Origin: Thiorhodovibrio litoralis
GTDB lineage: Bacteria; Pseudomonadota; Gammaproteobacteria; Chromatiales; Chromatiaceae
Reading direction: 5' to 3'
Length of the DNA: 64,000 nt
Assembly: GCF_033954455.1 (NCBI RefSeq)
Contig: NZ_CP121473.1
Span: 2,280,501-2,344,500, forward strand
Shown here: one piece after another, positions 1 through 63,485 of the stretch
Layout of the letters: each line of letters starts with the position of its first letter
Numbering within the stretch: position 1 is the first letter of the stretch
Translations under genes and position numbers: made by a program
The notes under the pieces: generated by a model
Seen by the model: the letters and a program-made list of their open reading frames with translations, nothing else
Told to the model about the DNA's origin: nothing
Database searches by the model: none

Positions 1-351
1 GAGCGCGACCAAGACCCGCTCGGGTTGCTCGGCGATCAGACCGGCCAGACAGGGAAGCAGCTCGTCGAACAGCTCTGCAAGCACGGGCACACGGGCACCG
101 GGGCCGAGCAGGTCCTGCGCGGTCAGTTGCAGGCAGAGGTCGTACAGAGCCGAAACGATGGTGTCCAGCTCGGCATCACTGCTAGTCCTCTCGGCCAGCC
201 CTTCGGCGACCGGGGCGGCATAGCGGCGCAACACATCCTGGAAATCATCCGGCGCCAGCCGCCGCTGCAGGTACCGGGCGCGCAGAAAGCGCTGGTTGTA
301 GTCGTCCCGCCGGCGCAGCAGGGCCTCGGCCAATGCCGTCAGTTCTGCCAC
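1..351 (-). CDS. Hypothetical protein coupled to MoxR-type ATPase (3' end outside window)
   Basis: The reverse strand is open from a GTG at 351 to the window edge (117 codons), starting [20 protein letters not shown]. It overlaps the last 13 bases of the upstream ATPase gene, the usual sign of translational coupling. The visible part is Leu/Ala/Arg-rich and looks helical; no domain is recognisable. MoxR-type ATPases are commonly followed by a von Willebrand factor A partner, so this may be such a partner's N-terminal region, but the metal-binding motif that would show it is not in the window. GTG was chosen because it gives the overlap. Confidence 0.6.
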   Translation of the reverse strand, partial: MAELTALAEALLRRRDDYNQRFLRARYLQRRLAPDDFQDVLRRYAAPVAEGLAERTSSDAELDTIVSALYDLCLQLTAQDLLGPGARVPVLAELFDELLPCLAGLIAEQPERVLVAL

Positions 352-1928
352 TTCAGCCAGCCCAGGTAGTTGCTGTAGCGCTGATGCAGGTACTTAAGCT
401 TGAGGATGTCGTCATACATGTGACCGTAAAGCTTGCGCCCTCTGGCCCAGTCGCGCAGCACACCCTCGATGCGGGCCAGGCGCTTGCGCACCTCGGCCGC
501 CGTCAGCCCGTCGAGGCCGCGCTCGAACTCAGCCTCCACCTCGGCCACCGGGTCGTCCCGCTCGAGACCGAGCCGGTCGAACTCCTGGCAGGAGCGGTCA
601 AACAGGCCACGAATCCAGCTGATCCGATCGACACGCAGGGTGGTCTGGCTGTCTTGCTCGAAGGCAGGGGCATCCGGGTTTTGGGTCAGCTTGTCGTGCA
701 TGACAAAGGGGATCATCTGGCGCATGTCCTCGAAGCTCACCGCGTGATCGCCGCGAAAGTAGGCCATCGCCTTGATAAATTGAATGCAGGTCATCAGCGC
801 CCGCACGGAAAAGCCGTTCAGGGACTGACTACCCAACTCGACCTGGGCGCTCTTGCCGGTCTCCTCGGTGTTCAAGGCGCTAAACTCGAGACCTGAGAGC
901 TTGACCGTGTCCTTGGTCATGTACTCGAACTGGTTGGCGGCGGGCTCAAAGAACTCGAAGTGACTGGCGAAGAACTCCAGCCGGCGGCGCAGCAGGGCCG
1001 GGAACTCCACCGCCAGGATCTCGCGCTCGAGCCGGTCGAGTTCCTCGGGGCTGAAGATGATCTGCGCCGGCACCACCTGCTCGGGCTGGATGCCGTCCTC
1101 AATGCGCAGCAGCAACTCGTTGAGAAAGCGCGTGTTGAAGTGCAGCGCCTTGACAACAATGTCGATGCGGTCGCGCAGGGCCTCAATGACCTGGTAGGTG
1201 CCGCCGCCAGCGTCGTCGTTGGCGGTTAGGTACCAGGCCGCCGGCGGGCACTCGTAGACTTGGTCGTAAAGTTCGGCGTAGTTGTCGGCCATGGTGGTGA
1301 GCAGGGCCGACTGAGTGCGGGTGGGAATGCGGTTGTACTCGTCGATGATTTTGACCCGCATCGACAGCCAGCGGCGCCAGGCGATCTTGACCTCGTCCAT
1401 GGATTGGGCGTTGATAAGAGTCGCCGGCAGCGGGTTGCCGAGCAGATCGGCGATGGTCATCTGCGGTTGGCCGTGCTGGATGGCGCGGCGGATCTCGTGC
1501 AAGTTGTAGCCGGCCAGCACGCCCATCAGGATAGCGATGGCGGTCTTGCCGCGACCGGGCCCGCCCACCAGCAGGCAGCGCCGCCGCACCGCCAGGTTCA
1601 ACAGCGGCGCCAGCGCGTAACTGGAGTAGCTCTGGTCGGTAGGCAAATTGATCGCCACCTTGCGGTCGCCGAAGTCGAAGCGCATTGGGGGCGCGTCGTT
1701 GTACTCGATGTCGTAGAAGGGCGAGATGATGGCGTGATTGACGATCCAGAAATAGGCCTGGCGCAATTTCTCGTCGAGCGGCTGCTCATCGACCTGAGCC
1801 GTTGCCGGCTCGCTGCTGGCGACCGGGCCGCGGTAGAGGTCAGCGACGTCGAAATCGTGCTGCGGTCGCTCGGCGGCTGGCCGGGTGGGCGACTGGGAAA
1901 TCTTGGCGTAGCGGTCGCGTTGGCGCAT
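339..1928 (-). CDS. MoxR-like AAA+ ATPase
   Basis: A 529-residue AAA+ protein. Walker A is [12 protein letters not shown], Walker B is the [17 protein letters not shown] region, and a sensor-1-like segment ([12 protein letters not shown]) follows, giving the MoxR/dynein-midasin type of order. The C-terminal third is a helical lid with no recognised domain. MoxR proteins act as chaperone-like ATPases that remodel or insert cofactors into partner complexes, usually with a VWA protein; the overlapping downstream gene would be the candidate partner. Start chosen at 1928 rather than an in-frame ATG at 1955 because TTGGAG lies seven bases upstream of it. The substrate cannot be told from sequence. 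Confidence 0.8.
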
Positions 1929-2034
1929 GGGCGGGCTCCAAGAGGACTCTGGCAACTATGGCACAATCCGCAGGTGGCGCGCATCGCTCCAATTCGCATC
2001 CGTTGGCGTTCATTTGCGGACTGCAACCAAAATC

Positions 2035-2616
2035 ATGACCGTTATCGAGGCAATCGCGGTAATCTTCGGCTTTCTCTGCGTCTGGCTGATCATTCGCCAG
2101 AATATCTGGTGTTGGCCAACCGGGTTGGTGCAGGTGGTGCTCTACCTGTTTATTTTCTCCCAGGTCAAGCTTTACTCGGACATGCTGCTGCACGGCATCT
2201 ATGTGGTCATGCAGCTGTACGGCTGGCACTGGTGGTTGCACGGCGGGCATGATCGCGACCGCCTGCCGGTGACGCGCCTGTCCGCTGCCGGGCTATCTGC
2301 CTGGGCCTTGCTGGCGGCGGCCGCCAGCCTGGGCTGGGGCCACCTGATGGCGACCCAGACCGACGCCGCCTTGCCCTACGCTGACGCCTTCACCACGGTG
2401 GCGAGCCTGGTCGCGCAGTGGCTGCTGGCGCGCAAGAAGTTGGAGTCCTGGCTGTTCTGGATCGCCGTCGATCTGGCCGCTATCGTCATCTACTATTCCA
2501 AGACGCTTTATCTGACCTCCGGCCTCTACGCGGCTTTTCTGGTGATGGCTGTTTTTGGGCTGCTCGCCTGGCACAGATCCCAGCGCGAGCCGCAGGCGGC
2601 GGTGCAACCGGCATGA
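2035..2616 (+). CDS. pnuC: Nicotinamide riboside/mononucleotide transporter PnuC
   Basis: A 193-residue inner-membrane protein with about seven hydrophobic segments. It has the PnuC hallmarks: an N-terminal [19 protein letters not shown] segment, [22 protein letters not shown] in the middle and [16 protein letters not shown] near the end. PnuC lets nicotinamide riboside cross the inner membrane and the imported substrate is trapped by phosphorylation. The next gene starts within its stop codon (ATGA overlap) and encodes exactly the kinase/adenylyltransferase needed, so the pair forms an NAD salvage operon. No NAD-linked riboswitch was recognised upstream. Confidence 0.9.
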
Positions 2617-3599
2617 GCACTGGGTTAGTACTGGGCAAGTTCGCGCCCCTGCATCGAGGCCACCAACTGCTGATCGAGACCGCCCTGGCGGAAAACGATC
2701 GGGTGCTGGTCATGATCTACCACGCCCCTGACGTCACCGGCGTAGCCCTCCCGGTGCGGGCAGGCTGGATTCGTGCCATCTACCCACAGGTGGCGGTGAT
2801 CGAGGCCTGGGATGGTCCGCTAGAGGTCAGCAATGCGCCTGACATCCGGCGCCAGCACGAGACCTACATCCTCGCTCGACTCGGCGGGCGCCGCGTCGAT
2901 GCCTTCTACTCCAGCGAGTTCTACGGCGAACATGTCAGCTGCGCCCTCGGCGCAATCGACCGTCGCATCGACCCGGAACGCACCCGCGTGCCCATCTCGG
3001 CCACCGCAATCCGCGCCGCCCCCTACCAACACCGTGAATTCCTGGACCCCCTGGTTTATCGCGACTTGATCACCCGCGTGGTGTTTCTCGGCGCCCCCAG
3101 CACCGGCAAGAGCACCCTGGCTGCGGCCCTGGCCGCGCGCCATCACACCTGCTGGATGCCAGAATATGGCCGAGAATACTGGGAAGCACACCAGCGCCAG
3201 CGCCGCCTGAGCCCGGTGCAACTGGTGGAGATAGCCGAAGGGCACCGCCAGCGGGAGGACCGCCTGGCCGAGCAGGCCAACCGCTTCCTGTTCGTCGACA
3301 CCGACGCCTCAACCACGCGCCATTTCGCCCGCTACTACCACGGCAGGGAGTTGCCGCGACTTGATCAACTGGTCGCGGAATGCGCCCAGCGCTACGACCT
3401 GTTCTTCCTGTGCGAGGACGACATTGCCTACGCCGACACTTGGGATCGCTCCGGCCCGGCCAACCGTCGCGAGATGCAAGCCCAGGTCAAAACCGACCTG
3501 GCGCTGCGCAAGCTCCCCTACCTGGCCTTGTACGGTCCGCTCGTACAGCGGATGGTCCAGGTCGACCAGGAACTGGCCCGCTCCTTAGAATGCTCTTGA
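2613..3599 (+). CDS. nadR: NadR-like bifunctional NMN adenylyltransferase / ribosylnicotinamide kinase
   Basis: A 328-residue protein of two parts. Residues about 1-160 are a nucleotidyltransferase with the [10 protein letters not shown] signature and an ISATAIR motif (the family ISxTxxR), expected to make NAD from NMN and ATP. Residues about 170-328 are a P-loop kinase (GAPSTGKST) expected to phosphorylate nicotinamide riboside. There is no N-terminal helix-turn-helix, so unlike the enterobacterial trifunctional protein it should not act as a repressor. Its ATG overlaps the pnuC stop, matching a channel-plus-trapping-enzyme operon. Confidence 0.88.
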
Positions 3600-10697: not shown

Positions 10698-12961
10698 ATG
10701 CGTTTGCGCTGCTTTTTCCCCCTGGCGGCAGAGGATCAGGGGCGTGCTCTGAGTGCGCTGCGCTGGCCGTTTCGCGATGACGCGTTGCTTGGGGATCTCA
10801 AGCATGGTCTGCGCGTTCAGGCGCTGGATGCCCGCGAGATTAGCAGCGCGGATGAACGCTGGTTTCTGCGCCGCGTTCGGCCGTATCGCACCGACGATGA
10901 CACGGTCCAGGGGATGGTGGTGACCTTCATGGACATCACCTCGCGCAAGCGCACGGAGGTTGCCCTGCGCGAGAGCGAGGAACATCTGCGCCGGATTACC
11001 GATGCATTGCCCGTGCTGATTTCCTATGTGGATCGGGATGGGTGCTACCGTTTCAACAACGCCCGTTATCGAGACTGGTTCGGGATTGATCCCAGCGCCG
11101 TGCAAGGCCGCCGGGTCAGCGAGGTGATCGGCGAGACGGCCTTCGCGGAAATCCAGCCACTGATGGAGCGGGCGCTCTCTGGCGAGACCGCACACTTCGA
11201 AAGTTGGCTGACGACCGAAGCCGCGGGTGGTGCGCGCTGTGTTTCAGCGCAATACATTCCGGACACCGACCAACGTGGGCTGACGCGTGGTTTCTTTGCC
11301 TTGGTCACCGATGTCACCGAGAGACGCAAGGCAGAGGAAGGACTGGAGAGATTGCGCCAGGATAACCAGCGTAATCTTGATGAGCTCCAAGCGCTGCTTG
11401 ATGCCGCACCGATCGGCATCTTTTTCGCGCGCGATCCAGGCTGCCAAGACATGATGATGAATCAGGCCGGGGCAGCGCTGCTGCGCGTGCCGCCGGATGC
11501 AAACCCGTCCAAGTCAGGTTCCCACGCCGAGGAGCTGGCCTTTCGCGTCTTCCATGCCGGGCATGAGTTGCCTCCCGAGGAGCTGCCGATGCAGCAGGCC
11601 GCCGCGCTTGGACGCACCATCGGCGGGATGGAGTTGGATATTCATTTTCCTGATGGCGCCCAGTTGAGCCTCCTGACTCATGCCGCGCCACTGTTCGATG
11701 ACACGGGGCAGGTGCGCGGCAGTGTTGGCGCCTTTGTGGATGTGAGCGAACAAAAACGTCTGGAGGCTCGTCTGCGCCAACAGACACGGGATCTGGAAGC
11801 CATCAATCAGCGCAAGGATGAATTTCTCGCCATGCTCGGGCATGAATTGCGTAATCCCCTGACGCCAATCCGCTCGGCGGTCTATCTCCTGGGCACGAAC
11901 CCCTCGCCCGGCGTTGATCTGGCCTGGGCCGGAGAGATGATCGACCGACAAGTCACGCACCTTGAGCGCATGGTTGACGATCTGCTCGATGTGGCGCGGG
12001 TGCGGTGCGGGACCCTGAGCCTGGCTTGCGAGGAACATCCCCTGCAAGGGCTGCTGCGGGAATGCGTCGAGGCCATCGCCCCGCAAGCGAGGAAAAGCAC
12101 TTGGCACTCACCTGCACTCTGCCGGAGGAACCGGTGCGGGTCTTCGGTGACCGTATCCGTTTGGTTCAGGTGTTTACCAACCTGCTCAACAATGCGACGC
12201 GTTACACCCCCGAGCATGGACAGATCAATCTGACGCTAGGATTGACGGATGATGATCAAGCCTGCGTCGAGGTGGCGGACAGCGGCAAGGGCATTTCCAG
12301 CGATCTCTTGCCACATGTGTTCGACATTTTTGACGGTGCGGTCGCCCACCCGGATCGGGCACACGCCGGGCTGGGGCTCGGTTTGATGTTGGTCAAGCAG
12401 ATCGTCGGTTTGCACGAAGGACAGGTTGACGCCCGCAGTGCGGGGTTGAATCAGGGTAGCTGTTTCCGCGTGACCCTGCCCTTGATCAGCCGCAATAATG
12501 CGCGCGGCGATGGCGGCGATGGCGGCGAGGGTTTTGAAGTTGCGAGTGTTTCGGTGTCCGTGGGCGACCGGGCGACGCAAGGGCTTGACGTGCTGATTGT
12601 GGATGACAACCTGGATATTCTGTCGTCCGTTGCTGGATTGCTGCGGCAACTCGGTCACAGGGTCCGGGTGCTGGATGCCGGTTCCCGCGTGCTCGCCATG
12701 GTCCGCGACAATCCAGTGGATCTTGTCTTGCTGGATATCGGTCTGCCGGATCTTGACGGCTATCAAGTGGCGCGCTTGCTGGCGCAAGAGCCTAACCGGG
12801 CTGATTATGCCGTTGTCGCTATTACCGGCTATGCCAATGCGGCTCCCACCGCCACGGCGCGCGGCGGCGATTTTGACGCTTGGCTGCAAAAACCTTTTCG
12901 TTTGGAGCAACTCAAGCCGCATCTGCGAACGCGCGCCGAACGCGAGACTGGCTCTGGCTAG
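10698..12961 (+). pseudogene. Hybrid sensor histidine kinase, 5'-truncated and frameshifted
   Basis: Two adjoining frames make one broken kinase. The first part begins inside a domain like the end of CheB/CheR-PAS hybrids (DERWFLRRVRPYRTDDDTVQ, GMVVTFMDITSRK). Two PAS domains follow, then a His-kinase dimerisation segment (EFLAMLGHELRNPLTPIRS). A one-base loss near 12088-12090 shifts the frame; the ATPase domain then continues (FTNLLNNATRYTP, GLGLGLMLVKQIVG), followed by a receiver domain with DLVLLDIGLPDLDGY and LQKPF. The CheB/CheR N-terminal portion is missing. Both defects argue for a pseudogene, though the frameshift could be a sequencing error. Confidence 0.72.
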
Positions 12962-40965: not shown

Positions 40966-41147
40966 GGCATTTCTCCGTGATTCGTTGCGGTGTGCTGAGC
41001 GTAATCACGATAATTGCGGGACCCATTTCCAAGCCATTTGAAGGACATGGAATGCGTGTGGGATCACGGGGGCCGTTACTGGCCGACAGCGGGAAGCCGG
41101 AATCGTGAACCACGCTTCCCCCCTGAGGGGGGAGAGACGCAGCGGGT

Positions 41148-41957
41148 TCAGTTGCCTCTAGCGCTCTGGCGAATGGCGCGAGCGAGGGTGTAGCGGGCAT
41201 AGCGCTCGGCATCGGCTCCGCGACGCGGGGACGCGCGCTCGAGCAAGCGTTGGTAGACCGTGGTCGGTGCAAGGCCGGCCTCAAGAGCGCCGCAGACCCA
41301 GCCCCATTCGCGGGCAGATTCGGACGGATCACCGGTGGATAAGCGCGCCCGTGGAGCGCAGTTGACGACCGGCGGCGGAGCCGGAGCCATCGTTGGCAAG
41401 GCCGGAGTTGGATCCCAGACGCGCTCCTGCGGGCTTGGTCGCCGAAGGACATTGACCCACTCCCCGCCACGCTTGGCATTCTTCATCCCGGCGAGCCGAC
41501 CGAGGTGCTCACCGGAGACCGAGCCCGGATCGGCGCCAACGCGCGGGATCAGCCAACGCTGCACATCACAGCGCTGCGCCTCATCGAGCGCGCGGGTCAG
41601 CCGTAGCCACAGGTGGCAGCCCCCGAGCGTCGAAGTCTGCACCACCAGGGCCGCATAGTGCCGAGCGATGCGCTGCGCCATCGGCCGTGCGACATCATCG
41701 AGAAACACCATTGGCCAGGGATAGCCGCGGGCTGGACGGATATAAATATCGGCCTGTTGGACATTGCGCGCTCTGGCCAGCCCCAACGGAAGCTGATCCA
41801 AAGAGCGATCATGGAACCACAGCATCGTCGCCTTGGCGGTGCGCACCGCCAAATCGGCACGCACGATGCCAGCGTCGTGCCATGCCTCAAGCATCACGGC
41901 GGTGTGTCTTGCCGCTGTCATGGCCTGGTGCGGGCGCTCAGCGCTCAAGCGGCTCAT
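41148..41957 (-). CDS. RepB-type primase-domain protein (transposon-borne, copy 1)
   Basis: A 269-residue protein whose first 175 residues match the RepB/archaeo-eukaryotic primase pattern (PF16793 type). ADIYIRP carries an Asp at about 70, FLDD an acidic pair at 87-88, VVQTSTLGGCHLWLRL a His at 115, and GEHLGRLAGMKNAK the C-terminal motif (residues 149-162). The acidic residues and His are those expected for nucleotidyl transfer. The rest has a Pro-rich linker and a small helical end. Its ATG shares one base with the stop of the AAA gene. Why a cut-and-paste-type transposon would encode a primase is unclear; repair or replicative transposition are possibilities. Confidence 0.65.
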   Translation of the reverse strand: MSRLSAERPHQAMTAARHTAVMLEAWHDAGIVRADLAVRTAKATMLWFHDRSLDQLPLGLARARNVQQADIYIRPARGYPWPMVFLDDVARPMAQRIARHYAALVVQTSTLGGCHLWLRLTRALDEAQRCDVQRWLIPRVGADPGSVSGEHLGRLAGMKNAKRGGEWVNVLRRPSPQERVWDPTPALPTMAPAPPPVVNCAPRARLSTGDPSESAREWGWVCGALEAGLAPTTVYQRLLERASPRRGADAERYARYTLARAIRQSARGN

Positions 41958-42808
41958 CAGGCGCCCGCCCTGGCACTCGGGCGTTGGCGGGCGTTGCCCG
42001 CCGCTGAACCAAACACCTCAAGGTAGAGTTGTTCATCGAGCTGCGCGCGTTCGAGCCGAGCAGCCTGCGCCAGCAATTCTGCCGCCATGGTCGTGAGCAC
42101 GCGATAATTGCCCAACGCATGCTCAGCGAGCGTCTTCATCAGCCCTGCGCTCATCAGACTCGCATTGCCGGCACTGTGTTGTAAATGCTCCAGGCAGGCG
42201 ACCAGCGCCTCGCGACTGGCATACTCCATACTCAGGCGCGTACGGATACGACTGCCCAGCGGCAGCAACTCCTCACGGCGCAGCTTGGTCGCCAGGCGGC
42301 CATCGCCGGCCAGGATCACGCTCAACAACGTGCGCGAATCGAACTGCATGGAGGTCAGCAGACGCAGCTCATTGAGCACCGTCGGATGCATCTCCTGCGC
42401 CTCGTCGATGAGCAACACCGGGCGCAACAGCGTCGTCTCCAGATGCGCCAGCCAGCGCTCGCGCAGGATCTTGAAGCCACCCCAGCGGTTATGGGGCTTG
42501 AGGTCAACGGCGAACAGATCGCCCATCTCGCGGTAGAAGTCCGCCACCTTCGAGCTGGGATGCGTGAGCGCCCCAACGCTGATATCGGGCAGCTGGCGCA
42601 GACGCTCATCGAGCAGGCGCAGTACCGCACTCTTGCCGGTACCCGGATCACCTTGAATGAGCGCAAAACCGCCTTCGCGGATCAGGCTCTGCTCGATGCG
42701 CCAGCAAAACTGCTCCACCGGCGCGCTGCGATGCAGTGCCGCCGTCGGCAGCTCCGGGGAGAACGGATTGAACTTCAGTCCATAGAGGGCCAGCAGGGTC
42801 TTGTTCAT
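41957..42808 (-). CDS. ExeA/TniB-like AAA ATPase (copy 1)
   Basis: A 283-residue AAA+ protein of the ExeA/TnsC-TniB type: YGLKFNPFSPELPTAALHRS start, Walker A in QGDPGTGKSAVLRLL (about 52-66), Walker B in PVLLIDEAQEM, and a sensor-like RTLLSVILAGDGRL. In Tn7- and Mu-like elements this class of ATPase picks the target DNA and activates the transposase. Start overlaps the transposase stop (ATGA); stop overlaps the primase start. Confidence 0.85.
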   Translation of the reverse strand: MNKTLLALYGLKFNPFSPELPTAALHRSAPVEQFCWRIEQSLIREGGFALIQGDPGTGKSAVLRLLDERLRQLPDISVGALTHPSSKVADFYREMGDLFAVDLKPHNRWGGFKILRERWLAHLETTLLRPVLLIDEAQEMHPTVLNELRLLTSMQFDSRTLLSVILAGDGRLATKLRREELLPLGSRIRTRLSMEYASREALVACLEHLQHSAGNASLMSAGLMKTLAEHALGNYRVLTTMAAELLAQAARLERAQLDEQLYLEVFGSAAGNARQRPSARAGA

Positions 42809-44262
42809 CGACTGGATTCCAGGTCATCGTGTTTTGGCAGATAGGCCGGCGGCAGACCGGTGGCGGCATACTCGGCGAGCAAGTCGCGCAGCAACGGTGG
42901 CAGCGTCGTGGCGCGTTGTGATGGCGGTGGCGGTGCGCCGGCGGGCTCAAGGCGCCGACGCTGCCCGGAGGCATTGGCGGCTTTATCGAGGGGATAGAGG
43001 CGGCAGAGGATGGCGCCCGAGTGGGGATCAACCACGTCCACAGCACTCAGATCCCAGCGGGCATAAGCGATATGCAGTTGCTCAAGGTGACGCAAGCGCG
43101 CCGGCACCTCGAAGCGCTTGCCCGCCAGGCTGAGCGTCCCATCGCTGCGGCGCTGACGGCGTTGGACGCGACAACGAAAAGCGGCGCGGACCTGCTCGCT
43201 GTCCGGACAGGGGCGCCCCACGTTGGGCGCATCGAGAAGACGCGCAAGCGGCGTGGCGGCGGTCTCACTGTGGACCTTGCGGTGGTACTCCTGCTCCACC
43301 CACGCCTGAGTGAGGGTGTTGAGCCGCTGCAGGCTCAGCTCCTCCAGCCCCTTAAGCATCGCCATCAGGCGGCCTTCCAGCGTGGCCCAGAAGCGCTCCT
43401 GCTTGGCGTTCTGATACGGGCTGTACGGCAGGGTCGGCTCGTGGAGGATGCCCAGCGCATGCAATCCGGCGGTGAATTCCTCGGCCTGCATTGCCGCGCC
43501 GTTATCGCTCATCAGGGCGCGCGGCAGCCCGCGCTTGTGCAACGCCTGTCCCAGACCATGCACCAAGGTCTCGGTGGTCTCATCGAGGTACCACTGCAGA
43601 TGGCAGATCAGGCGCGAGTGATCGTCGATGACCGCCAGCAGCAGGGGCTTGACCCAGACGCCACCCCGGGTGAGGACGTTGCGCGAGCCATGATGAAAGT
43701 CCAGATGCCACAAGGCATGGACATACTGGGCTTCATAGCTGCGCACCTCGCAGGCCTCCAGGCGCCGCGCGGCCTGCTCGGCCCCGGGTGTCTTGCGCGC
43801 CGGGACACGCCGGCGGTGCAGGCCCGCGCGCTTCATGAAGCGGCGCACGGTGGCATAGGAGGGCAGCGGCCCCAGGGTTTCATCGCCCGCGCACAAGGCG
43901 GCGAGGTTGTCGTAATGCAGCTGCACCGTCCAACCGGGGTAGTCGCGGTATTGCGCCTGTACGGCCTCCATCAGGCGCGGGCTCAGCGCGCGCTGCTCCC
44001 CGGCATCGCTGCGCCGGCGCGGGCGCAGTGCGGTCACCGGGTCTTGGGCATCGCGTGCGAGGTAATACCAGCGCTCCAAGGTCCCAAAGCTAAAACTGAC
44101 CGCCCGCCCAGTCACCGGATGACGCCATGACTTGGCCGCCAGCGCCTTCAGCCGCGCGCCCAGCGCGTTCGCCGGCGCAGGATCAGCCAATAAAGGACCA
44201 ATAATGGCAAAGCGCAACCGCGCCCAACCATCGGGATCACCGAGGCCGTTGTCATCGGACAT
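42805..44262 (-). CDS. DDE transposase, rve/TniA-like (copy 1)
   Basis: A 485-residue integrase-core transposase. Catalytic residues fit Asp188 (WHLDFHHGS), Asp253 (MSDNGAAMQ) and Glu289 (NAKQERFWATLEGR), a DD35E spacing. An N-terminal helix-turn-helix region precedes the core and a basic beta-rich domain (RRQRRSDGTLSLAGKRFEVP) follows. Copy 2 differs at four residues. Arrangement with a following AAA ATPase matches TniA-TniB. Confidence 0.88.
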   Translation of the reverse strand: MSDDNGLGDPDGWARLRFAIIGPLLADPAPANALGARLKALAAKSWRHPVTGRAVSFSFGTLERWYYLARDAQDPVTALRPRRRSDAGEQRALSPRLMEAVQAQYRDYPGWTVQLHYDNLAALCAGDETLGPLPSYATVRRFMKRAGLHRRRVPARKTPGAEQAARRLEACEVRSYEAQYVHALWHLDFHHGSRNVLTRGGVWVKPLLLAVIDDHSRLICHLQWYLDETTETLVHGLGQALHKRGLPRALMSDNGAAMQAEEFTAGLHALGILHEPTLPYSPYQNAKQERFWATLEGRLMAMLKGLEELSLQRLNTLTQAWVEQEYHRKVHSETAATPLARLLDAPNVGRPCPDSEQVRAAFRCRVQRRQRRSDGTLSLAGKRFEVPARLRHLEQLHIAYARWDLSAVDVVDPHSGAILCRLYPLDKAANASGQRRRLEPAGAPPPPSQRATTLPPLLRDLLAEYAATGLPPAYLPKHDDLESSR

Positions 44263-44355
44263 TCGTCTTCACCTCCCAGTTGTTTCACACATCACCGGGA
44301 GTCTAGAAGGCGCCGCCCAGCGGCGCGATGAGGTCTTCTGCGGGTTGGCGTTGCC

Positions 44356-44925
44356 CTACAGCAAGCCTGTCGCTGTCGTGCTCGGGGCGATCAATATCAG
44401 CAGTTGCACGACGCGCTCGGACAACGCTTTTGCGCTCAATTTTTCCAGCAGGGATCCTGGCAGGTGCTCGGTGGCGATCGGCGGCATCAACAGACCAGCC
44501 AAGGATCGAAAGCAGCGGGTTTGCACAAACTGCTCACGCCACCAGTGCTGCCACCGCCGCAGGGTTTGGACGGTGACACCAAGCGTCTTGATCAAGCGCC
44601 GGCGACGCGATGCGCTCAGTCCGTCATGCAGGGCCGAAATCAGCACGACGATGACCCCGAGATAGACCTTGCGGCCCAGAAACCGAACGGAAGGCGGGGT
44701 GCTGCGCCGCCGGCACCCGTCCGCGGCACAGCAGAAACTCAGACGGCTCTGGTAGCTCTCATCCAAGACGCCACGCACAACACCTCGGGGCTTACGCGGA
44801 TAACGGGCGCTGTGCAACGCACCACCGCAGTCACAGCCGCCCGCGCGGACTTCCTCGGCAATCGACTCGTCGATCCGGGTGAGCAGTTGGTAAAAGTTCG
44901 TGTCGGCAAGAAAGGCGTGACACAC
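44356..44925 (-). CDS. Zinc-ribbon/HTH protein of the transposon (copy 1)
   Basis: A 189-residue protein. Cysteines in GGCDCGGALH and FCCAADGCRRRSTP form a probable zinc ribbon (about 30-75); a helix-turn-helix-like segment follows (RLIKTLGVTVQTLRRWQHWW, about 110-130). Proteins of this type head operons of rve/ExeA elements and may bind the transposon ends or act as regulators. It is the first gene of the element and stops 93 bases before the transposase start. Confidence 0.65.
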   Translation of the reverse strand: MCHAFLADTNFYQLLTRIDESIAEEVRAGGCDCGGALHSARYPRKPRGVVRGVLDESYQSRLSFCCAADGCRRRSTPPSVRFLGRKVYLGVIVVLISALHDGLSASRRRRLIKTLGVTVQTLRRWQHWWREQFVQTRCFRSLAGLLMPPIATEHLPGSLLEKLSAKALSERVVQLLILIAPSTTATGLL

Positions 44926-45160
44926 TGGGACTGTCTCCTGGTTTTTGGCGAAATTCGGAGACAGCCCTCTCGGACAACTTGCGTCAAGTTGTTTGAGGGG
45001 GTTTTTTGTTTTCCCTCACTGAATTTGCTCAGAATCGCGGCCGATTCCCGCAAATAGTCTGCTCAGGCTCAGTGCGAATAACGATAGATCGGAAATGCCA
45101 ATTGATCATCGGGTCTGCTGGAACAACACTGTCCACATTGGTTCACTAATGGGTACCCGC

Positions 45161-58854: not shown

Positions 58855-59161
58855 TCATGGCGCCGCGCGGTCGGAAGGCGTCTTCAGGTTTGGGACTCGT
58901 GCAAACCGGGTCTTGATCCAGGCATCGACCGAGAGGTGCCCCGGCCCGGTGGCCGCCAGATAGAGCAGAATCGTCGCCCAGGTCCCATGCACCGGCCAGG
59001 CGTCCGGGTAGACCAGCAACTGAATGACGGCGGTCATTCCCAGCAACGCCAGCGCCGAGAAGCGGGTGCCCAGACCGATGAGCAGCAGCAGCGGAAACAG
59101 GTGCTCGGCGGTGGCTGCGGCATAGACGGCCAGCTCGGGCGAGATGAGCGGGAGGCTGTAC
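58855..59161 (-). pseudogene. HvfX/DoxX-family membrane protein, C-terminal fragment
   Basis: The last 100 residues of a DoxX-type membrane protein (AVYAAATAEHLFPLLLLIGL, LGMTAVIQLLVYPDAWPVHG, then WATILLYLAATGPGHLSVDA). The frame meets the transposon end at 59162; the first part lies at 63238-63485. The two flanks share the 6-bp duplication CTGTAC, and removing the transposon gives FLFREEY joined to SLPLISPE in frame. In Hvf operons this protein is named HvfX and assists copper-binding RiPP maturation. Confidence 0.83.
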
Positions 59162-59313
59162 TGAGCGTAATCACGATAATTGCGGGACCCATTTCCAAGC
59201 CATTTGAAGGACATGGAATGCGTGTGGGATCACGGGGGCCGTTACTGGCCGACAGCGGGAAGCCGGAATCGTGAACCACGCTCCCCCCCTGAGGGGGGAG
59301 AGACGCAGCGGGT

Positions 59314-60123
59314 TCAGTTGCCTCTAGCGCTCTGGCGAATGGCGCGAGCGAGGGTGTAGCGGGCATAGCGCTCGGCATCGGCTCCGCGACGCGGGGACGC
59401 GCGCTCGAGCAAGCGTTGGTAGACCGTGGTCGGTGCAAGGCCGGCCTCAAGAGCGCCGCAGACCCAGCCCCATTCGCGGGCAGATTCGGACGGATCACCG
59501 GTGGATAAGCGCGCCCGTGGAGCGCAGTTGACGACCGGCGGCGGAGCCGGAGCCATCGTTGGCAAGGCCGGAGTTGGATCCCAGACGCGCTCCTGCGGGC
59601 TTGGTCGCCGAAGGACATTGACCCACTCCCCGCCACGCTTGGCATTCTTCATCCCGGCGAGCCGACCGAGGTGCTCACCGGAGACCGAGCCCGGATCGGC
59701 GCCAACGCGCGGGATCAGCCAACGCTGCACATCACAGCGCTGCGCCTCATCGAGCGCGCGGGTCAGCCGTAGCCACAGGTGGCAGCCCCCGAGCGTCGAA
59801 GTCTGCACCACCAGGGCCGCATAGTGCCGAGCGATGCGCTGCGCCATCGGCCGTGCGACATCATCGAGAAACACCATTGGCCAGGGATAGCCGCGGGCTG
59901 GACGGATATAAATATCGGCCTGTTGGACATTGCGCGCTCTGGCCAGCCCCAACGGAAGCTGATCCAAAGAGCGATCATGGAACCACAGCATCGTCGCCTT
60001 GGCGGTGCGCACCGCCAAATCGGCACGCACGATGCCAGCGTCGTGCCATGCCTCAAGCATCACGGCGGTGTGTCTTGCCGCTGTCATGGCCTGGTGCGGG
60101 CGCTCAGCGCTCAAGCGGCTCAT
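59314..60123 (-). CDS. RepB-type primase-domain protein (copy 2)
   Basis: Identical in protein sequence to the copy 1 protein at 41148-41957. Asp in ADIYIRP, acidic pair in FLDD, His in GGCHLWLRL and the GRLAGMKNAK motif are kept. That both copies are intact and unchanged suggests the gene is under selection or recently duplicated. Confidence 0.65.
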   Translation of the reverse strand: MSRLSAERPHQAMTAARHTAVMLEAWHDAGIVRADLAVRTAKATMLWFHDRSLDQLPLGLARARNVQQADIYIRPARGYPWPMVFLDDVARPMAQRIARHYAALVVQTSTLGGCHLWLRLTRALDEAQRCDVQRWLIPRVGADPGSVSGEHLGRLAGMKNAKRGGEWVNVLRRPSPQERVWDPTPALPTMAPAPPPVVNCAPRARLSTGDPSESAREWGWVCGALEAGLAPTTVYQRLLERASPRRGADAERYARYTLARAIRQSARGN

Positions 60124-60974
60124 CAGGCGCCCGCCCTGGCACTCGGGCGTTGGCGGGCGTTGCCCGCCGCTGAACCAAACACCTCAAGGTAGAGTTGTTC
60201 ATCGAGCTGCGCGCGTTCGAGCCGAGCAGCCTGCGCCAGCAATTCTGCCGCCATGGTCGTAAGCACGCGATAATTGCCCAACGCATGCTCAGCGAGCGTC
60301 TTCATCAGCCCTGCGCTCATCAGACTCGCATTGCCGGCACTGTGTTGTAAATGCTCCAGGCAGGCGACCAGCGCCTCGCGACTGGCATACTCCATACTCA
60401 GGCGCGTACGGATACGACTGCCCAGCGGCAGCAACTCCTCACGGCGCAGCTTGGTCGCCAGGCGGCCATCGCCGGCCAGGATCACGCTCAACAACGTGCG
60501 CGAATCGAACTGCATGGAGGTCAGCAGACGCAGCTCATTGAGCACCGTCGGATGCATCTCCTGCGCCTCGTCGATGAGCAACACCGGGCGCAACAGCGTC
60601 GTCTCCAGATGCGCCAGCCAGCGCTCGCGCAGGATCTTGAAGCCACCCCAGCGGTTATGGGGCTTGAGGTCAACGGCGAACAGATCGCCCATCTCGCGGT
60701 AGAAGTCCGCCACCTTCGAGCTGGGATGCGTGAGCGCCCCAACGCTGATATCGGGCAGCTGGCGCAGACGCTCATCGAGCAGGCGCAGTACCGCACTCTT
60801 GCCGGTACCCGGATCACCTTGAATGAGCGCAAAACCGCCTTCGCGGATCAGGCTCTGCTCGATGCGCCAGCAAAACTGCTCCACCGGCGCGCTGCGATGC
60901 AGTGCCGCCGTCGGCAGCTCCGGGGAGAACGGATTGAACTTCAGTCCATAGAGGGCCAGCAGGGTCTTGTTCAT
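60123..60974 (-). CDS. ExeA/TniB-like AAA ATPase (copy 2)
   Basis: Same 283-residue protein as copy 1, with Walker A QGDPGTGKSAV and Walker B LLIDEAQEM. One silent base change was seen. Overlaps the transposase stop and the primase start. Confidence 0.85.
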   Translation of the reverse strand: MNKTLLALYGLKFNPFSPELPTAALHRSAPVEQFCWRIEQSLIREGGFALIQGDPGTGKSAVLRLLDERLRQLPDISVGALTHPSSKVADFYREMGDLFAVDLKPHNRWGGFKILRERWLAHLETTLLRPVLLIDEAQEMHPTVLNELRLLTSMQFDSRTLLSVILAGDGRLATKLRREELLPLGSRIRTRLSMEYASREALVACLEHLQHSAGNASLMSAGLMKTLAEHALGNYRVLTTMAAELLAQAARLERAQLDEQLYLEVFGSAAGNARQRPSARAGA

Positions 60975-62428
60975 CGACTGGATTCCAGGTCATCGTGTTT
61001 TGGCAGATAGGCCGGCGGCAGACCGGTGGCGGCATACTCGGCGAGCAAGTCGCGCAGCAACGGTGGCAGCGTCGTGGCGCGTTGTGATGGCGGTGGCGGT
61101 GCGCCGGCGGGCTCAAGGCGCCGACGCTGCCCGGAGGCATTGGCGGCTTTATCGAGGGGATAGAGGCGGCAGAGGATGGCGCCCGAGTGGGGATCAACCA
61201 CGTCCACAGCACTCAGATCCCAGCGGGCATAAGCGATATGCAGTTGCTCAAGGTGACGCAAGCGCGCCGGCACCTCGAAGCGCTTGCCCGCCAGGCTGAG
61301 CGTCCCATCGCTGCGGCGCTGACGGCGTTGGACGCGACAACGAAAAGCGGCGCGGACCTGCTCGCTGTCCGGACAGGGGCGCCCCACGTTGGGCGCATCG
61401 AGAAGACGCGCAAGCGGCGTGGCGGCGGTCTCACTGTGGACCTTGCGGTGGTACTCCTGCTCCACCCACGCCTGAGTGAGGGTGTTGAGCCGCTGCAGGC
61501 TCAGCTCCTCCAGCCCCTTAAGCATCGCCATCAGGCGGCCTTCCAGCGTGGCCCAGAAGCGCTCCTGCTTGGCGTTCTGATACGGGCTGTACGGCAGGGT
61601 CGGCTCATGGAGGATGCCCAGGGCGTGCAATCCGGCGGTGAACTCCTCGGCCTGCATTGCCGCGCCGTTATCGCTCATCAAGGCGCGCGGCAGCCCGCGC
61701 TTGTGCAACGCCTGCCCCAGGCCATGGACCAAGGTCTCGGTGGTCTCATCGAGGTACCACTGCAGATGGCAGATCAGGCGGGAGTGATCGTCAATGACCG
61801 CCAGCAGCAGGGGCTTGACCCAGACGCCACCCCGGGTGAGGACTTTGCGCGAGCCATGATGAAAGTCCAGATGCCACAAGGCATGGACATACTGGGCTTC
61901 ATAGCTGCGCACCTCGCAGGCCTCCAGGCGCCGCGCGGCCTGTTCAGCGCCCGGCGTCTTGCGCGCCGGGACACGCCGGCGGTGCAAGCCCGCGCGCTTC
62001 ATGAAGCGGCGCACGGTGGCATAGGAGGGCAGCGGCCCCAGGGTCTGATCGCCCGCGCACAAGGCGGCGAGGTTGTCGTAATGCAGCTGCACCGTCCAAC
62101 CGGGGTAGTCGCGGTACTGGGCTTGCACCGCATCCATCAGGCGCGGACTCAGCGCGCGCTGCTCCCCGGCATCGCTGCGCCGGCGCGGGCGCAGTGCCGC
62201 CACCGGGTCTTGGGCATCGCGTGCGAGGTAATACCAACGCTCCAAGGTGCCAAAGCTAAAACTGACCGCCCGCCCAGTCACCGGATGGCGCCATGACTTG
62301 GCCGCTAGCGCCTTCAGCCGCGCGCCCAGCGCGTTCGCCGGCGCAGGATCAGCCAATAAAGGACCAATAATGGCAAAGCGCAACCGCGCCCAACCATCGG
62401 GATCACCGAGGCCGTTGTCATCGGACAT
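60971..62428 (-). CDS. DDE transposase, rve/TniA-like (copy 2)
   Basis: 485 residues, differing from copy 1 at four places (Thr to Ala in DPVTALR, Glu to Asp in LMEAV, Glu to Gln in AGDETLG, Asn to Lys in SRNVLT); catalytic Asp188, Asp253 and Glu289 unchanged. Most base differences between the copies are silent and clustered in the first half of this gene. Confidence 0.88.
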   Translation of the reverse strand: MSDDNGLGDPDGWARLRFAIIGPLLADPAPANALGARLKALAAKSWRHPVTGRAVSFSFGTLERWYYLARDAQDPVAALRPRRRSDAGEQRALSPRLMDAVQAQYRDYPGWTVQLHYDNLAALCAGDQTLGPLPSYATVRRFMKRAGLHRRRVPARKTPGAEQAARRLEACEVRSYEAQYVHALWHLDFHHGSRKVLTRGGVWVKPLLLAVIDDHSRLICHLQWYLDETTETLVHGLGQALHKRGLPRALMSDNGAAMQAEEFTAGLHALGILHEPTLPYSPYQNAKQERFWATLEGRLMAMLKGLEELSLQRLNTLTQAWVEQEYHRKVHSETAATPLARLLDAPNVGRPCPDSEQVRAAFRCRVQRRQRRSDGTLSLAGKRFEVPARLRHLEQLHIAYARWDLSAVDVVDPHSGAILCRLYPLDKAANASGQRRRLEPAGAPPPPSQRATTLPPLLRDLLAEYAATGLPPAYLPKHDDLESSR

Positions 62429-62521
62429 TCGTCTTCACCTCCCAGTTGTTTCACACATCACCGGGAGTCTAGAAGGCGCCGCCCAGCGGCGCGATGAGGT
62501 CTTCTGCGGGTTGGCGTTGCC

Positions 62522-63091
62522 CTACAGCGAGCCTGTCGCTGTCGTGCTCGGGGCGATCAATATCAGCAGTTGCACGACGCGCTCGGACAACGCTTTTGCG
62601 CTCAATTTTTCCAGCAGGGATCCTGGCAGGTGCTCGGTGGCGATCGGCGGCATCAACAGACCAGCCAAGGATCGAAAGCAGCGGGTTTGCACAAACTGCT
62701 CACGCCACCAGTGCTGCCACCGCCGCAGGGTTTGGACGGTGACACCGAGCGTCTTGATCAAGCGCTGGCGACGCGATGCGCTCAGCCCGCAATGCAGGGC
62801 GGAAATCAGCACGACGATGACCCCGAGATAGACCTTGCGGCCCAGAAACCGAACGGAAGGCGGGGTGCTGCGCCGCCGGCACCCGTCCGCGGCACAGCAG
62901 AAACTCAGACGGCTCTGGTAGCTCTCATCCAAGACGCCACGCACAACACCTCGGGGCTTACGCGGATAACGGGCGCTGTGCAACGCACCACCGCAGTCAC
63001 AGCCGCCCGCGCGGACTTCCTCGGCAATCGACTCGTCGATCCGGGTGAGCAGGTGGTAAAAGTTCGTGTCGGCAAGAAAGGCGTGACACAC
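62522..63091 (-). CDS. Zinc-ribbon/HTH protein of the transposon (copy 2)
   Basis: 189 residues with the same CDCGG and CCAADGC zinc-ribbon cysteines as copy 1. A few replacements occur (Gln to His in NFYQLL, Asp to Cys in ALHDGL, Arg to Gln in SRRRRL, Leu to Ser at the end), so this is the most changed protein of the element. Confidence 0.65.
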   Translation of the reverse strand: MCHAFLADTNFYHLLTRIDESIAEEVRAGGCDCGGALHSARYPRKPRGVVRGVLDESYQSRLSFCCAADGCRRRSTPPSVRFLGRKVYLGVIVVLISALHCGLSASRRQRLIKTLGVTVQTLRRWQHWWREQFVQTRCFRSLAGLLMPPIATEHLPGSLLEKLSAKALSERVVQLLILIAPSTTATGSL

Positions 63092-63237
63092 TGGGACTGT
63101 CTCCTGGTTTTTGGCGAAATTCGGAGACAGCCCTCTCGGGCAACTTGCGTCAAGTTGTTTGAGGGGGTTTTTTGTTTTCCCTCACTGAATTTGCTCAGAA
63201 TCGCGGCCGATTCCCGCAAATAGTCTGCTCAGGCTCA

Positions 63238-63485
63238 CTGTACTCCTCGCGAAAGAGGAAGACCGCTGAATCCGATAGGCGCGGCCAACCCAGCTCGAAG
63301 GTGCCTGTCGTGATATCGATGGAGAGCCCCTCGATCTTGGTTTGGCCGGATCGCCAGAACACCCCAGCAATGGAGAAGCGCCCGAGCAAGGCGATCAGGC
63401 TGTGCGGAATGCGCTCCAGCAGCGGGATAGACACGGTGACGGCGGTGGCCAGACGGCTCGGGTGGGGCAGGGTATCAGCGTTCAT
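63238..63485 (-). pseudogene. HvfX/DoxX-family membrane protein, N-terminal fragment
   Basis: First 80 residues of the interrupted DoxX-type protein: LIALLGRFSIAGVFWRSGQT with the first helix and the conserved W-R-S-G-Q segment, then GWPRLSDSAVFLFREEY up to the transposon. The start is 10 bases after the HvfC stop, so both belonged to one operon. Function is lost unless the transposon excises. Confidence 0.83.

Follow-up and report, generated by a model that had tools for sequence, protein, structure and literature searches.

A Tn6049-type transposon of Thiorhodovibrio litoralis with a RepB'-type primase and a putative ssi-like hairpin in place of the small fourth gene

Why should a transposon that moves by a DDE transposase carry, as its last gene, what looks like the primase of a plasmid? 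This question is raised by a 64,000-nucleotide stretch of Thiorhodovibrio litoralis DNA (the window; assembly GCF_033954455.1, contig NZ_CP121473.1, positions 2,280,501 to 2,344,500), which holds two copies of an element comprising genes for a zinc-ribbon/helix-turn-helix (HTH) protein, a transposase, an AAA ATPase and a protein that an earlier sequence-only reading had assigned to the RepB primases, a type of archaeo-eukaryotic primase (AEP). We surmise, with a probability of roughly 0.55, that this is a transposon of the Tn6049 type in which the small fourth gene was replaced once by a primase of the RSF1010 RepB' type plus a hairpin resembling a single-strand initiation (ssi) site, and that the primase primes copying there. 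Below, "L" numbers denote individual loci and "G" numbers individual genomes, with G000 being the window's own genome (one contig of 5.47 Mb).

The element is a real, mobile, many-copy transposon. Its unit of 4076 bp runs from TGAGC to GCTCA, and a search of its own genome returned 27 primase genes, 26 of them in full elements and one in a copy interrupted by another, with the primase travelling together with transposase and ATPase, which bears out the earlier proposal that the set moves as a unit. The interrupted copy, whose sequence was taken only from unit base 1948 on, breaks off at base 3104 and restarts at base 3099, and because the two parts overlap by six bases, CCAGGG, the ends of the element and its duplication are fixed. 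Across the unit, copies 1 and 2 of the window align without gaps and with 43 mismatches (~98.9% identity), and 97 of the 4076 columns vary among the genome copies. Both window copies are complete with their ends, as had been claimed; the 6-bp target duplication claimed alongside holds for copy 2 but not for copy 1, whose flanks (GTGTGC and GTGCGA) contain no 6-bp duplication and, at best, one of 4 bp, GCAC. Among the 26 full copies, the duplication measures 6 bp in 15, 7 bp in 3, 5 bp in 2 and 4 bp in 3, with none in the remaining 3; as a side observation, a range of 4-7 bp, vs. the 4 bp described for Tn6049 (PMC4739549), is unusual for a single transposase.

All four genes lie on the minus strand (Table 1), with the last three overlapping end to start, by 4 bp between transposase and ATPase and by 1 bp between ATPase and primase, in agreement with the sequence-only reading. 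The transposase scored 136 bits against NCBIfam IS481, under the cut-off of 224, and both it and the ATPase matched PHROGs transposition families. That reading knew of no transposon family with this set, a claim that stands for the primase in fourth place but not for the other three genes: this core is known already because Tn6049 of Cupriavidus metallidurans CH34 (L042) has homologous genes in like order, i.e. a zinc-ribbon protein (43% identical), an IS481-like transposase (60%) and the 'gspA' ATPase (58%), followed by a fourth gene which is small (90 residues) rather than a primase. With the pBPHYT01 element (L041) included, identities are 43-44% for the zinc-ribbon protein, 59-60% for the transposase and 58-61% for the ATPase; among plasmids, the transposase matched Tn6049 (60%) and a Paraburkholderia phytofirmans element (59%), where gene order is alike and the fourth gene is annotated with 71 or 90 residues. 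Tn6049 has been described as a 3.5-kb transposon with 'gspA' (PMC2864759) that has 12-bp imperfect inverted repeats and a 4-bp duplication (PMC4739549); the window element resembles it in its TG...CA ends, its short target duplication and its many copies, of which Tn6049 has 12 (PMC2864759). We therefore class the window element, by these likenesses, as a Tn6049-type transposon that is new in its fourth gene.

What, then, is the fourth protein? The motifs quoted for it earlier (ADIYIRP, FLDD, HLWLRL and GRLAGMKNAK) are all present, and its assignment to the RepB/AEP primases is supported by Pfam, by sequence matches in the PDB and by alignment with RepB proteins. Pfam RepB_primase matched with 22.6 bits (E 1.1e-4), just below the cut-off of 24.3, and a PDB sequence search returned RSF1010 RepB' entries 3h25 and 3h20 (E 2.1e-9 and 4.9e-9), with no other match below 0.5. 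Residues D87, D88 and D143 align, as counted on the PDB alignment, with D77, D78 and D134 of RepB', which we take to be the catalytic residues. The acidic residues of motifs I and III bind metal in AEP primases (PMC5862659 section 8), and R154 and N160 fit motif IV, an Arg followed by Asn six residues on (spacing per PMC5862659 section 9). The C-terminal helix bundle, seen as three helices at 211-268 in a weak structure model (pLDDT, predicted local distance difference test, of 55.9), aligns with two plasmid-type RepB proteins (L197, L198), the protein itself ending in RGN at 269 residues; in plasmid primases such a bundle is required for primer synthesis (PMC4434180). A Foldseek search with the same model returned 3h20 and 3h25 as the only 2 of 887 matches with E <= 0.001, but with TM-scores of 0.22-0.33, and this result is not independent of the sequence match because Foldseek also uses sequence. 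Between the window primase and the two primases of G441, a genome in the same genus, there is no difference in the metal-binding or motif IV residues.

The gene also shows the marks of selection. Its frame is open in all 26 full copies, 24 of the 26 proteins being identical, and among copies it has 7 variable columns, 6 of them silent and 1 not. Against G441, the ratio of non-synonymous to synonymous substitution (dN/dS) is 0.22 at dS 0.61 (0.18 for the zinc-ribbon gene and 0.083 for the ATPase), and the primase gene has therefore been maintained by selection over a real distance. Judged from its sequence, this protein belongs to the AEP primases of the RepB' type, and it may synthesize primers. 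Its own genome has three further RepB_primase-domain matches above the family cut-off, at G000:C1:4199659, 1228835 and 5351424, in open frames of 826-937 residues.

The exchange of the fourth gene is most evident at L117, a locus in a metagenome-assembled genome of a delta proteobacterium (Myxococcota). Here DNA identity with the window element is 79.6% over element positions 53-3060, a span that takes in most of the ATPase gene; the right terminal sequence is alike, while the slot holds a small gene of 59 residues without the hairpin described below. A transposase tree of 103 rows (cut loci counted as 'none') groups the 3 primase rows, one from the window and two from a single other genome, in one clade with a support of 99, and places L117 as sister to it (100). 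A single replacement of the small gene by the primase would most simply account for these data.

To define what had been replaced, we took a census of the slot. A ten-row transposase alignment, searched against contigs of 84,980 species, yielded 316 relatives, and the best 80 of these plus 24 others made up 104 loci; omitted were loci on the same contig or copies of the same element (L040, L086, L087, L088, L089, L090, L097, L100, L107, L113), loci that were broken, partial or without genes (L054, L091, L099), and also L219 and L220 (Streptomyces), L221, L222, L225 and L228. The slot holds a small gene in 86 of the 104, a primase in 3 (the window and two G441 copies) and something else in 9 (2 RepA-like, 2 with a different open reading frame (ORF), 5 with nothing recognised), with the ATPase cut in 5 and the contig ending in 1. 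The small proteins end in F in 78 of 86 cases and in PF in 58, and in 70 the final F is preceded by at least two acidic residues among seven, as compared with a C-terminal F in 0/86 ATPases and 0/85 transposases of the same loci. Since near-copies are counted in the 86, we also took the distinct last-25 stretches, of which 73 of 81 end in F; the count is not circular because the seeds of the small-gene profile were cut before the tail. Six of the 86 genes are weak in family score (E 0.2 to 2: L093, L112, L187, L195, L223, L226), and two are cut before the tail, L195 (no final F) and L131 (which stops ...HRF and is counted in the 78). The two single-stranded DNA-binding (SSB) proteins of the host end in FDDDIPF and FDDDLPF, and the small protein of L117 in FDDDLPEF; SSB uses this C-terminal tail to bind partner proteins. 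No Pfam domain was found in the small protein (4 tested). In the Tn6049-type family the slot normally holds a small protein whose tail, as read here, resembles that of SSB, and is not one held by TniQ/TniR or TnsD, as the sequence-only reading had assumed from Tn402- and Tn7-like elements. Those elements (Tn402/Tn5053 and Tn7-like) likewise combine a DDE transposase with a TniB/TnsC-like ATPase but differ in the fourth slot, no TniQ/TnsD match being found among the four proteins of the window element. Among the papers listed in our literature searches, none was on an SSB-like tail in a transposon protein, subscription journals lying mostly outside the search.

Two other ideas about the small proteins were discarded: those of Tn6049 and pBPHYT01, compared by eye, are unlike primase fragments, and a beta-clamp motif is not a family-wide feature, with QxxLF in just 7/86 (QPDLF or QLDLF, which presumably resembles the beta-clamp binding motif, lies near the C-terminus in L155, L161, L177, L194, L085, L095 and L096). 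Among individual loci, the Accumulibacter elements L134 and L143 have a different ORF of ~90 residues (RPPQGERAMTD...) in the place of the small gene after the ATPase; on the Streptomyces plasmids L219 and L220 the small gene lies, by annotation only, between transposase and ATPase; L221 has no small gene annotated; and L223 (Undibacterium plasmid pUKW01), in which parts of a related element are repeated, has three consecutive annotations of the same small protein.

Immediately 3' of the primase stop there is a hairpin, missed by the sequence-only reading, and its presence favors real priming over a changed role. Three primase lineages keep the pattern CGTCTCT-C5-6-loop-G5-6-...CGTGG after the stop, and in G000 a narrower pattern for it occurs in 27/27 copies, each beside a primase gene, and nowhere else. 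In ssiA, a hairpin at nt 7-27 is followed by the start triplet GTG at 31-33 (PMC4434180 section 14); the window hairpin has its GTG at +4, as in that description, with the distance shifting by one or two bases among copies and lineages as the C- and G-runs vary in length. A search for inverted 40-mers through some of the non-coding sequence of an IncQ1 plasmid gave a single pair, on the plan TTTCCCCC-loop-GGGG-CG(.)GTG, and a second IncQ1 plasmid has the same inverted pair; from its form and place, this pair is probably ssiA and ssiB, the two ssi sites lying in oriV (PMC6925257). Over the 1.3 Mb of sequence analysed, a common pattern covering both the element and the IncQ kind matched in primase elements (including those of G441 and G507, the latter a genome in the same family) and in the IncQ pair, plus once at window position 10715, and in 0/86 small-gene loci and 0/3 RepA-like loci. 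In the window element this site occupies bases 116-140 from the right end, on the coding strand; a relaxed pattern detected no second ssi on the other strand. The hairpin is thus likely a ssi-like initiation site, which the primase would recognize.

Based on these features, we postulate the following sequence of events. Transposase and ATPase would join the 3' ends of the element to the target, whose free 3' end would then prime one strand from the gene-start side through the element, displacing the coding strand. The ssi-like hairpin near the far end would thereby become single-stranded, allowing the element's primase to lay a primer there; extension of this primer toward the gene-start end would copy almost the whole element, with the displaced strand being filled in. 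In this scheme one ssi would be enough because the target 3' end primes the other strand, loading of the host primase would not be needed, and the mode of copying would be strand displacement of the IncQ kind. The same parts could also serve to repair gaps after cut-and-paste transposition, or to make the second strand in a copy-out route.

Two known systems bracket this proposal. Phage Mu, like the window element, pairs an rve transposase with an AAA ATPase, and joins transposition to replication, as we propose here; in Mu, strand transfer is followed by PriA-dependent replication restart for replication and repair of insertions, so that the primosome is the host's (PMC3325207), whereas the window element encodes a primase. 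The RSF1010/IncQ module (RepA, RepB', RepC, ssiA/ssiB) has, as here, a two-domain RepB'-type primase and a hairpin with GTG three bases on, and its strand-displacement logic (PMC6925257, PMC4538821) would be possible in the window element, which differs in having no RepC gene, one ssi-like site and a His for Gln in motif II. Where elements with AEP genes have been mapped, the integrases were of the tyrosine or serine type (PMC5862659). Among the papers listed in our searches, none described a transposon pairing its own RepB-type primase with a DDE transposase, a weak negative given that subscription journals lay mostly outside the search. Casposons and pipolins are also mobile elements with their own DNA-synthesis enzymes, but these are polymerases combined with other recombinases, vs. 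a primase with a DDE transposase here.

The primase is not the only replication-type protein to occupy the slot. In L129 and L179 an AAA_25-type protein starts at the ATPase stop; that of L129 matches Pfam AAA_25 (E 2.2e-34) and, as its only PDB match with E <= 0.01, RSF1010 RepA (E 1.4e-8), which suggests a helicase-type replication protein, though the RSF1010 name is not to be over-read because a best PDB match tells little about origin. One more RepA-like case (G623), overlapping an ATPase after a distant transposase, came from 299 sampled genomes in the phylum, and the RepA-like query had no match at 1e-15 among plasmids. The transposase tree leaves the gain in L129 and L179 as once or twice, and both proteins have an unusual Walker A, GGEPKCCKS. 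We speculate that the family's small protein uses its SSB-like tail to hand the transposition complex to host proteins, and that elements with a primase or RepA-like protein in the slot provide a replication protein directly, such that the fourth slot would be an exchangeable module for recruiting replication (SSB-tail mimic, RepA-type helicase, or RepB'-type primase with ssi) and the window element would be self-priming, with IncQ-like copying. This wider proposal is tentative, and we place it well short of an even chance. Its counterpart, that the tail recruits host proteins while the two variants came for other reasons with no common slot role, would fit the 9/104 loci that have neither small gene nor primase and Thermobacillus, where no small gene is annotated; we hold it to be somewhat unlikely, in that both replacements best match, among solved structures, replication proteins of the same plasmid type. 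Like the doubt about the hairpin considered next, it concerns one part only, and the odds that we attach to the several alternatives do not sum to one.

Several observations weigh against copying primed by the element's own primase. Motif II of the window primase is His115, where the Gln of RepB'-like enzymes (PMC5862659 section 8) would be expected, a His being usual in some other AEP families, and the AlphaFold models are weak (pLDDT 46.8 and 55.9). The primase gene is found in only 3/146 genomes of its family, own included, and in 2/3 of its genus; in a class sample of 369 genomes, 3 match, of which only the own genome has this gene, the two others having plasmid-type RepB at 35%. The G507 gene has decayed, with a stop in the primase match, the motif III aspartate replaced and no ATPase found. 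Among the element copies no cointegrate signature was found; a candidate cointegrate or inversion, sought from swapped 6-bp flanks of 26 copies, was rejected, as the one cross-match involved L029 and L039, each with its own 5- or 6-bp duplication. With respect to the hairpin, the pattern was written with both element and IncQ sites in view, and a dinucleotide model expects 0.017 matches per 64 kb, so the lone match outside elements, at window 10715 (+), means that the model is too lenient or that the match is not chance. The flank score of the window hairpin is 9, a score shared by 6/156 background hairpins with none higher; only G441 (10) and G507 (11) exceed background, and the three lineages are kin, not independent. 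Folding of the tail vs. shuffles is modest for the window (z -2.37) and not better for G441 (z -0.66), and the solo-primase plasmids L230 and L231 have no such site. One alternative is a real primase next to an unrelated hairpin, a C/G-rich structural mRNA end similar to ssi by chance, given that G+C-rich hairpins with short flanks match easily and the window score stays within the background maximum. We regard this explanation as rather doubtful in view of the absence of a T-run after the hairpin on either strand and the confinement of the pattern, bar window 10715, to primase-bearing elements and the IncQ pair.

A different explanation for the whole is that the primase has turned into a DNA-binding adaptor which makes no primers but binds the right-end hairpin or single-stranded DNA and helps in assembling or positioning the transposition complex. 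The deviating motif II would be in accord with this, as would the replacement of a small protein in which no Pfam domain was found (4 tested), and in RepB' both domains take part in binding ssi DNA (PMC4434180 section 14). An adaptor, however, would not need the metal-binding and motif IV residues, which do not differ between the window gene and either G441 gene, and we consider this explanation unlikely. Less probable still is a captured plasmid fragment, primase plus hairpin, riding along with no part in transposition: the RepB relatives among plasmids are plasmid genes and the primase-bearing lineage is narrow, but the primase took the slot of a family-wide gene rather than being added alongside, its start coincides with the ATPase stop, and purifying selection acts on it.

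As for range, a check had been proposed of whether homologues sit within such transposons. This holds for the two G441 genes (80% identical), both within full-length elements, and for the single G507 gene (70% identical) in a decayed one, but not for a 51% identical G441 fragment (L099) with no element genes alongside or for RepB proteins ~27-37% identical to the window primase, which are on plasmid records. Patterns matched in viral contigs, with a primase or transposase relative confirmed in none, and a primase-alignment scan of genome contigs likewise confirmed none, which says little on range, only two patterns having been used. The G441 copies L051 and L052 have in common a ~80-bp deletion splitting the transposase into two frames; being 99% identical nevertheless, the two may have been mobilized in trans, or decay may have preceded or accompanied their copying. 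Elsewhere, on a G382 contig (L091), a transposase fragment is repeated in tandem every 789 bp. At the gene-start end of the window element, 44926-45071 folds far better than shuffles (z -5.5); it contains a terminator-like hairpin, the T-run of which is on the outward strand, and the hairpin sequence is largely kept in L117, G441 and G507.

Table 1. Coordinates of the element, its genes and hairpins in the window, and of RepA-like proteins at related loci.
Feature	Sequence	Position	Strand	Remarks
Whole element, copy 1	Window	40996..45071	-	4076 bp; gene-start end 45071, primase end 40996; junction in interrupted copy L039
Left (gene-start) terminal sequence	Window	45032..45071	-	TGAGCCTGAGC...; TGAGC and TTGCGGGA common to both ends
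Gene 1, zinc-ribbon/HTH protein	Window	44356..44925	-	189 residues; some relatives annotated DUF6431
Gene 2, IS481-like DDE (rve) transposase	Window	42805..44262	-	485 residues; Pfam rve 3.8e-11
Gene 3, ExeA/TniB-like AAA ATPase	Window	41957..42808	-	283 residues; AAA_22 2.4e-20
Gene 4, predicted RepB'-type primase	Window	41148..41957	-	269 residues; D87, D88, H115, D143, R154, N160; C-terminal helix bundle
Putative ssi-like hairpin immediately 3' of primase stop	Window	41111..41135	-	TCTCCCCCCTCAGGGGGGAAGCGTG
Right terminal sequence	Window	40996..41035	+	TGAGCGTAATCACG...; similar end in L117
Second copy of element	Window	59162..63237	-	target duplication CTGTAC at 59156-59161 and 63238-63243
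Primase gene, copy 2	Window	59314..60123	-	offset 18166, no gaps
Putative ssi-like hairpin, copy 2	Window	59277..59301	-	
RepA-like AAA_25 protein	L129	3298-4254		
RepA-like AAA_25 protein	L179	3648-4259		runs off contig
RepA-like AAA_25 protein	L228	3184-4365		open frame; found via RepA-like query

Of most interest here are the pairing of a primase with a candidate start site, and a fourth slot, in a known kind of transposon, that may be exchangeable. Detailed knowledge of how a transposition complex hands over to DNA synthesis comes mainly from Mu. If our proposal is true, this handover could be tested by single-gene swaps at a slot able to take an SSB-like tail, a helicase-type protein or a primase, and plasmid replication modules would have been joined to DDE transposition. 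For the family as a whole, the SSB-like tail in its widespread small protein makes a clear prediction for binding assays.

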